Shown here piece by piece: positions 22,569 through 41,254 of a stretch of DNA of 41,254 nt. The notes under the pieces were generated by a model. The model was given only the letters and a program-made list of their open reading frames with translations. It searched no databases and was not told the origin of the DNA. The position numbers and the translations under genes are program-made. Within the stretch, counting starts at the first letter, position 1. Every line of letters starts with the position of its first letter. The stretch is from Casimicrobiaceae bacterium (GTDB taxonomy: Bacteria; Pseudomonadota; Gammaproteobacteria; Burkholderiales; Casimicrobiaceae), in NCBI GenBank assembly GCA_025056355.1, contig JANWWI010000017.1:1-41254 (forward strand), in the 5' to 3' direction.

Positions 22569-22811
22569 CCCCTCACCCGGCGCTTCGCGCCGCCCTCTCC
22601 CCGAGGGAGAGGGCAAAGAAGGTGAGCATCCTGCGCCAAGCTGTCTCCCCCGAGGGGAGAGGGCATGAGCAGCCCGCGCCAAGCTAGCTCCCCCGAGGTT
22701 GAGGGCAAACCACGTTGAATGGTTCGCGCCGCCGTACCGTCGAGGGAGAGTTCAAAAAACGCGGGCATTCCCGCTGCTCCCTCTCCCTTTGGGAGAGGGT
22801 TGGGGTGAGGG
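22569..22811. repeat. Composite palindromic element, family A (CCCTCTCCC type)
   Basis: The outer ends CCCTCACCC (22570-22578) and GGGTGAGGG (22803-22811) are complementary. Between them are GGCGC-TTC-GCGCC (22579-22591), CCCTCTCCC-CGA-GGGAGAGGG (22593-22613), TCTCCCC-CGA-GGGGAGA (22644-22660), a degenerate relative near 22688-22706, GCGGG-CATT-CCCGC (22761-22774) and CCCTCTCCC-TTT-GGGAGAGGG (22779-22799). The spacers GCGCCAAGCT recur twice. It looks like a decayed run of intergenic palindromes of the REP/BIME sort, lying just upstream of ddl. I cannot assign it to a named family. Confidence 0.75.
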
Positions 22812-22812
22812 C

Positions 22813-22828
22813 GGTGTGCGTGCACACC
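22813..22828. repeat. Linker hairpin between repeat families A and B
   Basis: GGTGTGC (22813-22819) and GCACACC (22822-22828) form a perfect 7-bp stem around GT. It fills the gap between the two palindromic elements with one unpaired base on the left and one on the right. Confidence 0.6.
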
Positions 22829-22829
22829 G

Positions 22830-22972
22830 ACCCCTCTGCCGCTTCCAGCGGCATCTCCCCTACGGCTTACGCCGCAGGGGAGAACAACTTTGGCCTGTCC
22901 TCCCCTTCGCCTCAGCGCTGTCCTCCCCTTCGCCTCAGCGAAGGGGAGGTGGCGCGAGAGCGCCGGAGGGGT
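22830..22972. repeat. Four-arm palindromic module, family B, single copy
   Basis: The ends ACCCCTC (22830-22836) and GAGGGGT (22966-22972) are exact complements. Inside are four hairpins: arm 1 TGCCGCT-TCC-AGCGGCA (22837-22853), arm 2 with outer CTCCCCT/AGGGGAG and inner CGGC/GCCG (22855-22882), arm 3 CCTCCCCTTCGC-CTCA-GCGAAGGGGAGG (22922-22949), arm 4 GGCGC-GAGA-GCGCC (22951-22964). The left half of arm 3 is duplicated: 19 bases at 22899-22917 recur at 22922-22940. The same module, in another sequence version, forms the array at the end of the window. Confidence 0.85.
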
Positions 22973-38851: not shown

Positions 38852-39984
38852 ACGATGCCGCAAAGAGGCTCGAGCCCGTGCTCTTGAGCGAACGTGCCAG
38901 CGCCAGCGGCCATCGCATCGCACGCGCCACGCTCAACTCACCGGGCAATCTCAACGCGCTCTCGCTTGCGATGATCCGAGAGCTCGATCGGGCGCTTATC
39001 CGTTGGGCGGAGGATCCAACCATCGCACTCGTTTGGCTCGAAGGCGCAGGCGAGCGCGCCTTCTGTGCTGGCGGCGATGTGGTCGCACTGGCGCGGCTTG
39101 CGCTCGAACATGGGCCCGAGGCCGCCGTACCCCACGCGCAAGCCTTCTTCGAGCACGAATACCGACTCGACTACCGGCTGCACCGCTATCCGAAGCCGGT
39201 AGTGGTCTGGGGCCACGGGGTCGTGATGGGCGGCGGCATGGGGCTCATGCAAGGGGCCTCGCATCGGGTGGTCACCGAAGCCTCGCGCCTTGCGATGCCC
39301 GAGATCACGATCGGCCTTTTTCCCGATGTGGGCGGCAGCTGGTTTCTTTCGCGGCTTGCGCCGGGGCTCGGGCTCTTCCTCGCCCTCACGGGCGTGCACC
39401 TCAACGCGGCTGACGCACTCTATGCCGGGCTTGCCGACTTTGCCCTTGCCAGCGCTGAACGCGAGCGGGTGCTTGAGCGGCTTGCCGCCGAACCGTGGAG
39501 CGGGGAGGCGCAGGAGGATTCGTCGCGGCTCACGCATCTTTTGGAGGCTGCGGGCCAGGGGCTTGAGCTGCCAGCCTCCGCGCTTGAAGCGCACCATGGG
39601 CGCATCCGGCGCATCATCGGCCGGGACCGGCTTTCCGACATCGCCGAGCGCTTGCGTGCGCTTACCGAAGATCCTGACCCGTGGCTTGCCCGGGCGGCGC
39701 AAAACTTTGTGCGGGGCTCGCCGACCACGGCGGCGCTTTCTTACGAGCTGCAACAGCGTGCGCGTTACCTTTCACTGGCCGATGTGTTTCGGCTCGAATA
39801 CCAGGCCGCGGTGGGCTGTTGCGCGCACCGCGATTTCCCCGAGGGGGTGCGCGCACTCTTGATCGACAAAGACCGCAACCCGCGCTGGCAGCCGGCAACG
39901 CTCGAGGAGGTCACCCCCGGCTGGATCGAGGATCATCTGCGCCCGCGCTTTACCGGGCAGCACCCGCTTGCGGATCTGAGCTGA
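38848..39984 (+). CDS. 3-hydroxyisobutyryl-CoA hydrolase (HIBCH type)
   Basis: A 378-aa crotonase-superfamily enzyme with the ECH_2 architecture. It contains FCAGGDVVALA, VVMGGGMGLMQGASHRV (oxyanion hole), AMPEITIGLFPDVGGSWFLSRL with the catalytic glutamate and aspartate, and the C-terminal DFPEGVRALLIDKDRNPRW. The length and C-terminal block distinguish hydrolases from enoyl-CoA hydratases. It would release 3-hydroxyisobutyrate from its CoA thioester, feeding MmsB. No separate enoyl-CoA hydratase is in the operon, so methacrylyl-CoA hydration must be supplied elsewhere. Confidence 0.92.
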   Translation: MNDAAKRLEPVLLSERASASGHRIARATLNSPGNLNALSLAMIRELDRALIRWAEDPTIALVWLEGAGERAFCAGGDVVALARLALEHGPEAAVPHAQAFFEHEYRLDYRLHRYPKPVVVWGHGVVMGGGMGLMQGASHRVVTEASRLAMPEITIGLFPDVGGSWFLSRLAPGLGLFLALTGVHLNAADALYAGLADFALASAERERVLERLAAEPWSGEAQEDSSRLTHLLEAAGQGLELPASALEAHHGRIRRIIGRDRLSDIAERLRALTEDPDPWLARAAQNFVRGSPTTAALSYELQQRARYLSLADVFRLEYQAAVGCCAHRDFPEGVRALLIDKDRNPRWQPATLEEVTPGWIEDHLRPRFTGQHPLADLS

Positions 39985-39993
39985 AAACACACG

Positions 39994-40000
39994 AAGGAGG
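39994..40000 (+). promoter_or_regulatory. Strong ribosome binding site of mmsB
   Basis: AAGGAGG at 39994-40000, five bases before GTG 40006, is a full-length Shine-Dalgarno match and decides the GTG start. Confidence 0.85.
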
Positions 40001-40005
40001 AAACC

Positions 40006-40899
40006 GTGTCCGACAAGCCAGTCATTGCCTTCATCGGTCTTGGGAACATGGGCGCTCCGATGGCGGCCAATCTTGTGAAGGCGGGCTATCGTGTGCGCGG
40101 CTTCGACGTGGTCGCGGCATGCCTCGATAAAGCCGCGGCCTCCGGCGTGGAACCCTGCGTGAGTGCCGAGGAAGCCGCCGCAGGGGCTGGTGTGGTGATT
40201 TCGATGCTGCCGGCCAGCGCACATGTGGAAGCACTCTACCTGGGCGAGGGCGGATTGCTCGGGCGTCTTCGAGGCGGCACGCTTGTGATCGATTCGAGCA
40301 CGATCGCACCGGCCAGCGCCCGCAAGGTTGCGCAGGCCGCGCGCGAGCGGGGCTTGGCCATGCTTGATGCGCCAGTCTCGGGCGGGGTGGCCGGGGCAAC
40401 CGCCGGCACGCTCACCTTCATCGTCGGCGGAGAGGCGGCCGATGTCGAACGCGCCCGGCCGGTGCTTCTGTCCATGGGCAAAAACATCTTTCACATGGGG
40501 GCATCAGGGGCCGGGCAAGTGGCCAAGCTCTGCAACAACCTTGCACTCGGTGTCATCATGGCGGTCACGGGTGAGGCCATTGCACTCGGTGTGGCGCACG
40601 GGCTTGACCCCAAGGTGCTCTCGCAGATGATGGCCGTTTCGACGAGCCGCTCCTGGGCCACCGAAGTCTGCAATCCCTGGCCCGGTGTGCTCGAAAACGC
40701 CCCCGCTTCGCGCGGCTACACGGGCGGGTTTGCCAACGATCTCATGCTGAAGGATCTGGGTCTTGCCGTTGAGGCCGCGATGCAAGTGGGCGCCACCGTG
40801 CCGCTTGGCGAGCTTGCACGCAACCTCTACGCGATGAACCGCGCGCAAGGGCGGGGCGCGCTCGACTTCTCAAGCGTGGTCAAGGTGGTGGCGCCGTAG
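40006..40899 (+). CDS. mmsB: 3-hydroxyisobutyrate dehydrogenase
   Basis: MmsB oxidises 3-hydroxyisobutyrate to methylmalonate semialdehyde with NAD. The 297-aa product has the Rossmann signature FIGLGNMGAPMAANLVKAGY at the N terminus, the substrate-binding DAPVSGGVAGATAGTLTF and the catalytic lysine of GQVAKLCNNLALG near residue 173, then GYTGGFANDLMLKDLGLA, which is characteristic of this subfamily. The GTG start follows a strong AAGGAGG. Last gene of the operon; the palindromic array begins 13 bp after its stop. Confidence 0.94.
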   Translation: MSDKPVIAFIGLGNMGAPMAANLVKAGYRVRGFDVVAACLDKAAASGVEPCVSAEEAAAGAGVVISMLPASAHVEALYLGEGGLLGRLRGGTLVIDSSTIAPASARKVAQAARERGLAMLDAPVSGGVAGATAGTLTFIVGGEAADVERARPVLLSMGKNIFHMGASGAGQVAKLCNNLALGVIMAVTGEAIALGVAHGLDPKVLSQMMAVSTSRSWATEVCNPWPGVLENAPASRGYTGGFANDLMLKDLGLAVEAAMQVGATVPLGELARNLYAMNRAQGRGALDFSSVVKVVAP

Positions 40900-40912
40900 C
40901 GGTACATCAGTT

Positions 40913-41254
40913 CTCCCCTACGGCTTATGCCGCAGGGGAGAACGACTCGCCGTTTTCCTCCCCTTCGCCTGCGAAGGGGAGGTGGCGCGAAGCGCCGGAG
41001 GGGTTGGTCAAGCCCGCGCGCTCAAGCCCACGCAAGACCCCTCTGCCGACTTTGTCGGCATCTCCCCTACGGCTTATGCCGCAGGGGAGAACATTCCAAC
41101 CGGGTCCTCCCCTTCGCTTGCGAAGGGGAGGTGGCGCGAAGCGCCGGAGGGGTTGGTCAAGCCCGCGTGCTCGAGCTCACGCAAGACCCCTCTGCCGACT
41201 TTGTCGGCATCTCCCCTACGGCTTATGCCGCAGGGGAGAACATTCCATCCGGGT
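40913..41254. repeat. Tandem array of the four-arm palindromic module, family B (149-bp period)
   Basis: Three copies with a period of exactly 149 bp (arm 2 starts at 40913, 41062 and 41211). Copy 1 lacks arm 1; copy 3 is cut by the window end. In copy 2 the ends are ACCCCTC (41037-41043) and GAGGGGT (41147-41153). Arm 1 is TGCCGAC-TTT-GTCGGCA (41044-41060), arm 2 is 41062-41089, arm 3 CCTCCCCTTCGC-TT-GCGAAGGGGAGG is 41106-41131, arm 4 GGCGC-GAA-GCGCC is 41133-41145. A 32-bp spacer joins the copies (41005-41036 and 41154-41185) and differs at about three positions. No gene is seen in this stretch. Confidence 0.9.

Follow-up and report, generated by a model that had tools for sequence, protein, structure and literature searches.

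The window, by which we mean the whole stretch of 41,254 nucleotides that was analysed, is contig C79 of a metagenome-assembled genome (MAG) of a Casimicrobiaceae bacterium (2.62 Mb in 170 contigs, 97.95% complete). No 16S match was obtained in the MAG itself; a 16S gene of its genus mate G005 has 91.1% identity to Cupriavidus, and the host is accordingly taken to belong to the Burkholderiales. The contig ends in an array of palindromic DNA, 40910-41254, with a tandem period of 149 bp (TRF reports 40912-41254, period 149, 2.3 copies). The array starts 10 bp past the stop codon of a long open reading frame (ORF) at 40006-40899, presumably mmsB, as it was named in a preliminary description of this stretch, and its sequence stops at the contig end, up to which the copies were counted. 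A second unit, absent from that description, stands alone near 22.8 kb, and both sites lie between long ORFs. The building block is a half-element some 50 bp long, composed of a hairpin 1 (CTCCCC…GGGGAG), a hairpin 2 and a GAGGGGT tail. There are two types of halves, which we call Y and Z, and a full unit is one of each in opposite orientation with the tails outwards; one such pair makes a 117-nt module of four hairpins. The element is probably a non-autonomous mobile repeat resembling the bacterial interspersed mosaic elements (BIMEs) and the REPINs, which are doublets of repetitive extragenic palindromic (REP) sequences. The array is made up as follows, with scores from the models R1 and R2 that were built from copies of the halves.

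40910-40943, no strand: lone Y-type hairpin 1 with 15-nt arms (93% complementary) and a 4-nt loop; hairpin 2 and heptamer are absent, the first copy being truncated
40957-41004, plus strand: Z half with hairpin 1 CCTCCCCTTCGC/GCGAAGGGGAGG, hairpin 2 GGCGC/GCGCC and tail GAGGGGT; R2 76.5 bits (this copy was among those building R2)
41005-41036, no strand: tail-to-tail linker, 32 nt
41037-41090, minus strand: Y half, ACCCCTC coming first on the plus strand; R1 81.9 bits (this copy was among those building R1)
41091-41105, no strand: head-to-head spacer, 15 nt
41106-41153, plus strand: Z half, the right half of the complete unit 41037-41153
41154-41185, no strand: tail-to-tail linker, second copy, 32 nt
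41186-41239, minus strand: Y half of the following unit, incomplete because the contig ends; R1 81.9 bits

The preliminary description counted three units at the 149-bp period. The period stands, and copies 40956-41104 and 41105-41253 are 97% identical, but only 41037-41153 is a complete four-hairpin unit, with the ends ACCCCTC (41037-41043) and GAGGGGT (41147-41153). The first copy (40910-41004) is truncated, its left half having neither ACCCCTC nor hairpin 2, and the last (41186-41254) breaks off where the contig stops. An array at the end of a MAG contig can raise the suspicion of an assembly artefact. The two copies differ however at 5 of 149 positions, a similar array is found inside another contig (L009), and R2 matches follow each other at steps of 166-167 bp in the complete chromosome of Roseithermus, so the array can hardly be explained in that way.

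The same grammar was observed throughout the genome. The Z half consensus (48-52 nt) reads CCTCCCCTTCGC-loop-GCGAAGGGGAGG, T, GGCGC-loop-GCGCC, G and GAGGGGT, and that of the Y half (54-55 nt) TCTCCCCTGCGSC-loop-GSCGTAGGGGAGA, a second stem such as TGTCGGC-loop-GCCGACA, and GAGGGGT. Typing by script in the window and 31 genome regions gave 28 Y and 37 Z halves. Neighbours less than 100 nt apart formed 28 pairs, 27 of them inverted and 27 joining Y with Z (19 head-to-head YZ, 7 tail-to-tail YZ, 1 tail-to-tail ZZ and 1 direct YZ). The head-to-head spacer varies by site, being 9-15 nt in 10 of the 19 pairs and 38-86 nt in the other 9, and some of the longer spacers carry, as judged by eye, an extra hairpin between duplicated spacer copies (15/15 bases in L012, 11/11 in L029 and 10/11 in L019). 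The Y/Z pairs of this genome have the palindromic units of two types in alternating orientation that define a BIME, and ACCCCTC and GAGGGGT of 41037-41153 are terminal inverted repeats, as in a miniature inverted-repeat transposable element. The end tags of known REPs, GTAG and CGTC, are both absent from the ends of the halves (consensus of 27 Y and 31 Z halves), GTAG occurring solely within the paired Y stem.

When folded alone, 41037-41153 gave a closed structure with four main hairpins and the two heptamers paired together, on either strand, just as the preliminary description had proposed. The z-scores were -7.8 and -9.6, and none of 200 shuffles folded as well. A fold of all 149 nt of 40956-41104 has another pairing, in which the Z tail reaches over the linker to the tail of the following Y half. 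In the stems of both types pairing is kept through double changes. Among 27 Y halves (26 distinct) the paired cells amount to 96.5%, and 32 cells have changes on both sides; among 31 Z halves (28 distinct) the values are 97.3% and 15 cells. The covariation score of Y and that of Z were each unreached by any of 500 shuffles, while two further measures for Z, both-side-changed pairs (136/500) and further pair types (409/500), were not above the shuffles. As the copies are related within one genome and were chosen by a pattern demanding the outer stem, the covariation shows that the palindromes are retained, not that an RNA is produced. One G-T pair in Y is invariant (26 of 26 distinct copies), which is a strand asymmetry.

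Strong folding, covariation and a position directly after an ORF would also suit an element selected by the host, such as a terminator, a stabiliser of mRNA 3' ends or a structured non-coding RNA, the last having been suggested earlier. No terminator-like site was found in 39900-41254, where 0.8 were expected, and a search of Rfam with 40800-41254 gave 18 matches up to E 10, none at the gathering score; the best E value, 1e-4, belonged to a hepatitis C element with 25.5 bits against a gathering score of 140. In other genomes the elements show no orientation bias relative to genes, and the gene arrangement around them (46 tandem, 20 convergent, 14 divergent) is near the background (147, 65 and 68). 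Furthermore, the halves face opposite ways, and the genus mate G009 has no R2 match. On these sequence data the non-coding RNA was abandoned, and a host-selected function as a whole appears very unlikely; effects on the mRNA of the upstream gene would be side effects. According to a crude ORF map, 80 of 95 elements in the other genomes were intergenic. In Reyranella the tail is followed by a start codon (GGAGGGGTCATG) and resembled a Shine-Dalgarno site, a reading that was rejected, as many of the ATG frames are short or run into the adjacent inverted half; a few stay open for 68-100 codons.

The preliminary description also offered a mobile or amplifying element as a reading, and recommended a model search of the genome and its relatives; this reading is supported. 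With the array as query, blastn gave 59 matches in the genome itself, some being both strands of one place. R1 matched 101 times and R2 103 times, totals that include each other's halves and opposite-strand matches and are not element counts. Eleven contig ends lie at or within about 100 nt of copies. R2 had matches in 10 of 40 genomes, its own included, nine of these within the genus and the tenth, G033 with 36 matches, in another family of the order; in a class-wide sample with stricter filters it was 14 of 143, again with its own. The DNA of G009, of the genus mates the one closest to the window at the 22.8-kb site, is 79% identical on both sides of that site, and no element was seen in the orthologous gap. 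In another orthologous gap (the L043 site, compared by eye) the occupants vary: two-hairpin halves, as a pair, in G005; single-hairpin repeats of another kind in G012, G006 and G004; and a different short hairpin in G013. G016 has none. The element copies thus differ by lineage. Which repeat family fills the gap at the L043 site depends on the species, as though palindromic repeats tended to land there. A plasmid search with the whole unit gave one record and a phage search none; with the Z half alone, and E values up to 1 admitted, there were 17 plasmid records, two of them with a coverage of at least 80%, the best being from Vescimonas and Deinococcus and several weak ones lying within genes.

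The second complete unit, at 22830-22972, and a diverged relative in the window are the following.

22830-22883, minus strand: Y half of the isolated unit; R1 80.2 bits
22922-22972, plus strand: Z half of the isolated unit; R2 73.3 bits
22571-22612, minus strand: diverged relative with hairpin CCCTCTCCC/GGAGAGGG, hairpin GGCGC/GCGCC and tail GGGTGAGGGG; R2 30.2 bits

A perfect tandem duplication of 23 bp (22895-22940) inside this unit extends into hairpin 1 of its Z half and is possibly a slippage event. It was also possible to observe a different repeat nearby, at 22773-22815 (CTCCCTCTCCC…GGGAGAGGGTTGGGGTGAGGG), which has a single hairpin and lacks a second stem, and the core of which matches dozens of times in the genus, many of them in G011.

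The Z half is not confined to this order. An exact pattern of it, 20 fixed bases and two two-fold positions, was found in at least 118 stretches of named genomes and in 25 of viral contigs. By record titles the former belong to eight phyla, Pseudomonadota, Bacillota, Bacteroidota, Synergistota, Nitrospinota, Chloroflexota, bacteria of the candidate phyla radiation (CPR; Nomurabacteria and Taylorbacteria) and Rhodothermota (Roseithermus), one record being titled just "bacterium". Many of the stretches come from MAGs, where binning may err, and Gemmiger formicilis, Fretibacterium fastidiosum, Roseithermus sacchariphilus, Asticcacaulis, Sphingomonas and Enhydrobacter are records of other origin. 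Twenty named genomes, chosen for variety, had from 3 to 148 R2 matches each among the matches listed, 150 candidates per genome being scored. The cross-phylum loci were chosen by the Z pattern alone. A Y-like pattern, for which a few examples had served as models, matched 18 halves in the 855 kb of these loci. Y-like/Z neighbours within 150 nt formed 15 pairs, every one of them inverted (14 in Bacillota and one, L109, in Bacteroidota), where about one would be expected by chance proximity. Of neighbouring Z halves 22 of 28 pairs were inverted, and a looser scan gave 75 of 89 adjacent pairs. The second half in these phyla is only Y-like, with C or A after GGGGAG and T or A before GAGGGG, and in the alphaproteobacterial examples L110, L116 and L118 Z is paired with Z. 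Direct tandem arrays of Z halves were seen in L108 (Bacteroidales UBA4353; period about 100 bp) and in the Roseithermus chromosome (G044; 166-167 bp), which implies that tandem growth occurs in other phyla too.

It is conceivable that the same G-rich inverted repeats arise without any enzyme, by template switching during replication and gene conversion, and that unrelated phyla have converged on them. No linked enzyme was seen, and the duplications of hairpin and spacer would fit such a process. What speaks against it is that Burkholderiales, Bacillota and Bacteroidota all have the same 20-base Z half in inverted orientation to another type of half, for which convergence is hard to accept; this is not decisive, as the second type is merely Y-like in the latter two, but we consider an enzyme-free spread highly improbable.

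The dispersed copies, the lineage differences and the inverted pairs are probably best understood as those of a mobile palindromic repeat that is BIME/REPIN-like and non-autonomous. Its hairpins and G-rich tail could be recognised, in the single-stranded state of the locus, by a strand-transferring enzyme acting in trans, in a role analogous to that of TnpA-REP, the REP-associated tyrosine transposase (RAYT), for GTAG REPs. The 149-bp array would have grown locally, by slippage or by unequal recombination between identical halves, and the duplicated blocks of hairpin and spacer at other loci may be a trace of these events. A bolder version, which we put forward tentatively and as somewhat less likely than not, is a third REP-like superfamily with a GAGGGGT tag and two-hairpin halves of two regularly paired types. 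It would be present in eight or more phyla, CPR among them, and would owe its movement to an enzyme other than a RAYT.

Several results weigh against a mobile repeat. The covariation within one genome shows that the palindromes are kept, not by what means. Recognition of single strands was tested by asking whether G-T mismatches outnumber A-C mismatches on the tail strand; they did not in the genome itself (8 versus 10, the invariant G-T pair excluded), nor clearly in the less biased cross-phylum subset (17 versus 9, p 0.17); a cross-phylum count of 36 versus 9 was not used, since the search pattern fixes the 3' arm and biases it, and a reversed-sequence control (97 matches) was uninformative, the motif reading almost the same when reversed. 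The search of G009 used R2 and not R1. At the two sites compared there was no clean empty site or target duplication, the relatives being too divergent there. No Y1 transposase was found in the MAG with PF01797, and no RAYT, which the preliminary description had proposed to look for, with a 12-sequence genus RAYT profile that recovers all four G005 genes. Finally, no gene family occurs beside the element in more than three loci, four families being found in three loci each (ORFs of at least 80 aa within 1.5 kb were clustered, for 105 of 143 pattern loci).

These results also bear on a canonical RAYT-driven REP system, whose transposase gene would have been lost or would lie in an assembly gap flanked by repeats. 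The layout is BIME-like, Y1 genes occur in 30 of 40 relatives (and in 14 of the 20 named genomes), and the MAG is incomplete and breaks at repeats. We scanned 58 Y1 loci, among them two overlapping pairs. Genomes with R2 matches supplied 43 of them, plus one overlapping repeat, and about a quarter are from genomes without the element. Only one of the 58, L247, is flanked by it, although the scan recovered the elements in 28/31 and 22/24 positive loci. There, in a Bacteroidales UBA4353 MAG, two direct copies 1.16 kb apart, which share flanking sequence, enclose a gene at 129-1097 whose 322-aa product matches Y1 weakly (25.5 bits), and this speaks for such a system. Seven other Y1 loci had one or two low-scoring scan matches each, without family sequence, and R2 was weak in L248 (E 0.12) and L239 (E 0.15). 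G033, for all its R2 matches, has neither a PF01797 nor a RAYT-profile match, and Roseithermus, with 54 R2 matches, has no PF01797 match and only one diverged RAYT-profile match (E 1e-9), at a locus without R2 match. Since the genome has no visible Y1 or RAYT gene, one of 58 Y1 loci is flanked and no neighbour recurs, a RAYT is unsupported as the present mobiliser, and the canonical system is unlikely, though a RAYT may have acted on the element in the past, and a gene may lie in an assembly gap. For the mobile repeat that we prefer, the lack of such a gene implies that the family is no longer active here or uses another enzyme. Beside one Y1 gene, in L074 of G013, another repeat (TCAAGTCTTA…GGGGTGGG) was seen twice in one orientation (151-197 and 944-990), its sequence unrelated to the element.

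Short palindromic repeats are common bacterial non-coding DNA, and they also cause breaks in MAG contigs, of which the window is an example. If distant phyla share a third tag that has a two-hairpin grammar of its own, the mobiliser should be a widespread and unnoticed enzyme or host process, and the pairing of Y with Z is a handle for finding it.

A literature search, with most subscription journals outside its reach, gave no description of the element, which is not proof that it is unpublished. Passages of PMC12306157, PMC1273637, PMC2245857 and PMC1525189 did not decide its identity. BIMEs, which have Y and Z unit types in E. coli, bind gyrase, IHF or Pol I, and the dispersed unit of a REPIN is an inverted doublet. 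Our element is likewise an inverted doublet, but of two different halves and with no RAYT found in its genome. The comparison with one-hairpin REPs made in the preliminary description must be modified, as two inverted halves are the known BIME/REPIN layout, whereas each half, with two hairpins, is indeed more elaborate. In BIMEs the palindromic units alternate in orientation (PMC2817692), and our element shares this with them, as well as short linkers and arrays, but its halves have two hairpins each and a GAGGGGT tail instead of a terminal GTAG.

GTAG and CGTC are described as the two end-tagged REP superfamilies holding most short palindromic repeats (PMC3733652). Like these, the element consists of short palindromes with a fixed tag at one end, is spread over several phyla and forms dimers and clusters, and CGTC repeats are likewise reported to be without a linked transposase; the tag is however GAGGGGT and placed after the second hairpin. 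Among the TIRs (terminal inverted repeats) of TIR-associated tyrosine transposases some are double palindromes and some carry GGGGWSAS (PMC3733652), which resembles the double palindromes and G-rich motif seen here, by description and not by sequence, but except in L247 our element is not linked to a Y1 gene. Br-REP1, the middle of three stem-loops in Bradyrhizobium, and Br-REP2 are intergenic multi-palindrome repeats too, in an alphaproteobacterium, and the consensus sequences given for them are unrelated to CTCCCC/GGGGAG (PMC5082802).

For rhizobia, the RIME and the AB and C palindromes have been named (PMC2573895). A rhizobial repeat, used as query, matched 325 plasmid records, mostly of Rhizobium and Sinorhizobium. 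On pSymB of S. meliloti it is a 112-bp unit, CCCCTCA…one-hairpin half…spacer…two-hairpin half…TGAGGGG, and the R. leguminosarum copy is similar with changed ends; this unit may be RIME1. With R2 there was no clear match in the first 50 kb of pSymB, the best having E 0.025. Compared by architecture alone, the S. meliloti unit, with ends CCCCTCA/TGAGGGG, and ours, with ends ACCCCTC/GAGGGGT, both consist of hairpin halves joined by a spacer, while the stem sequences differ and the rhizobial left half has one hairpin. The element is perhaps kin to these rhizobial mosaic elements, and it is of the REP/BIME kind in a new variant form.
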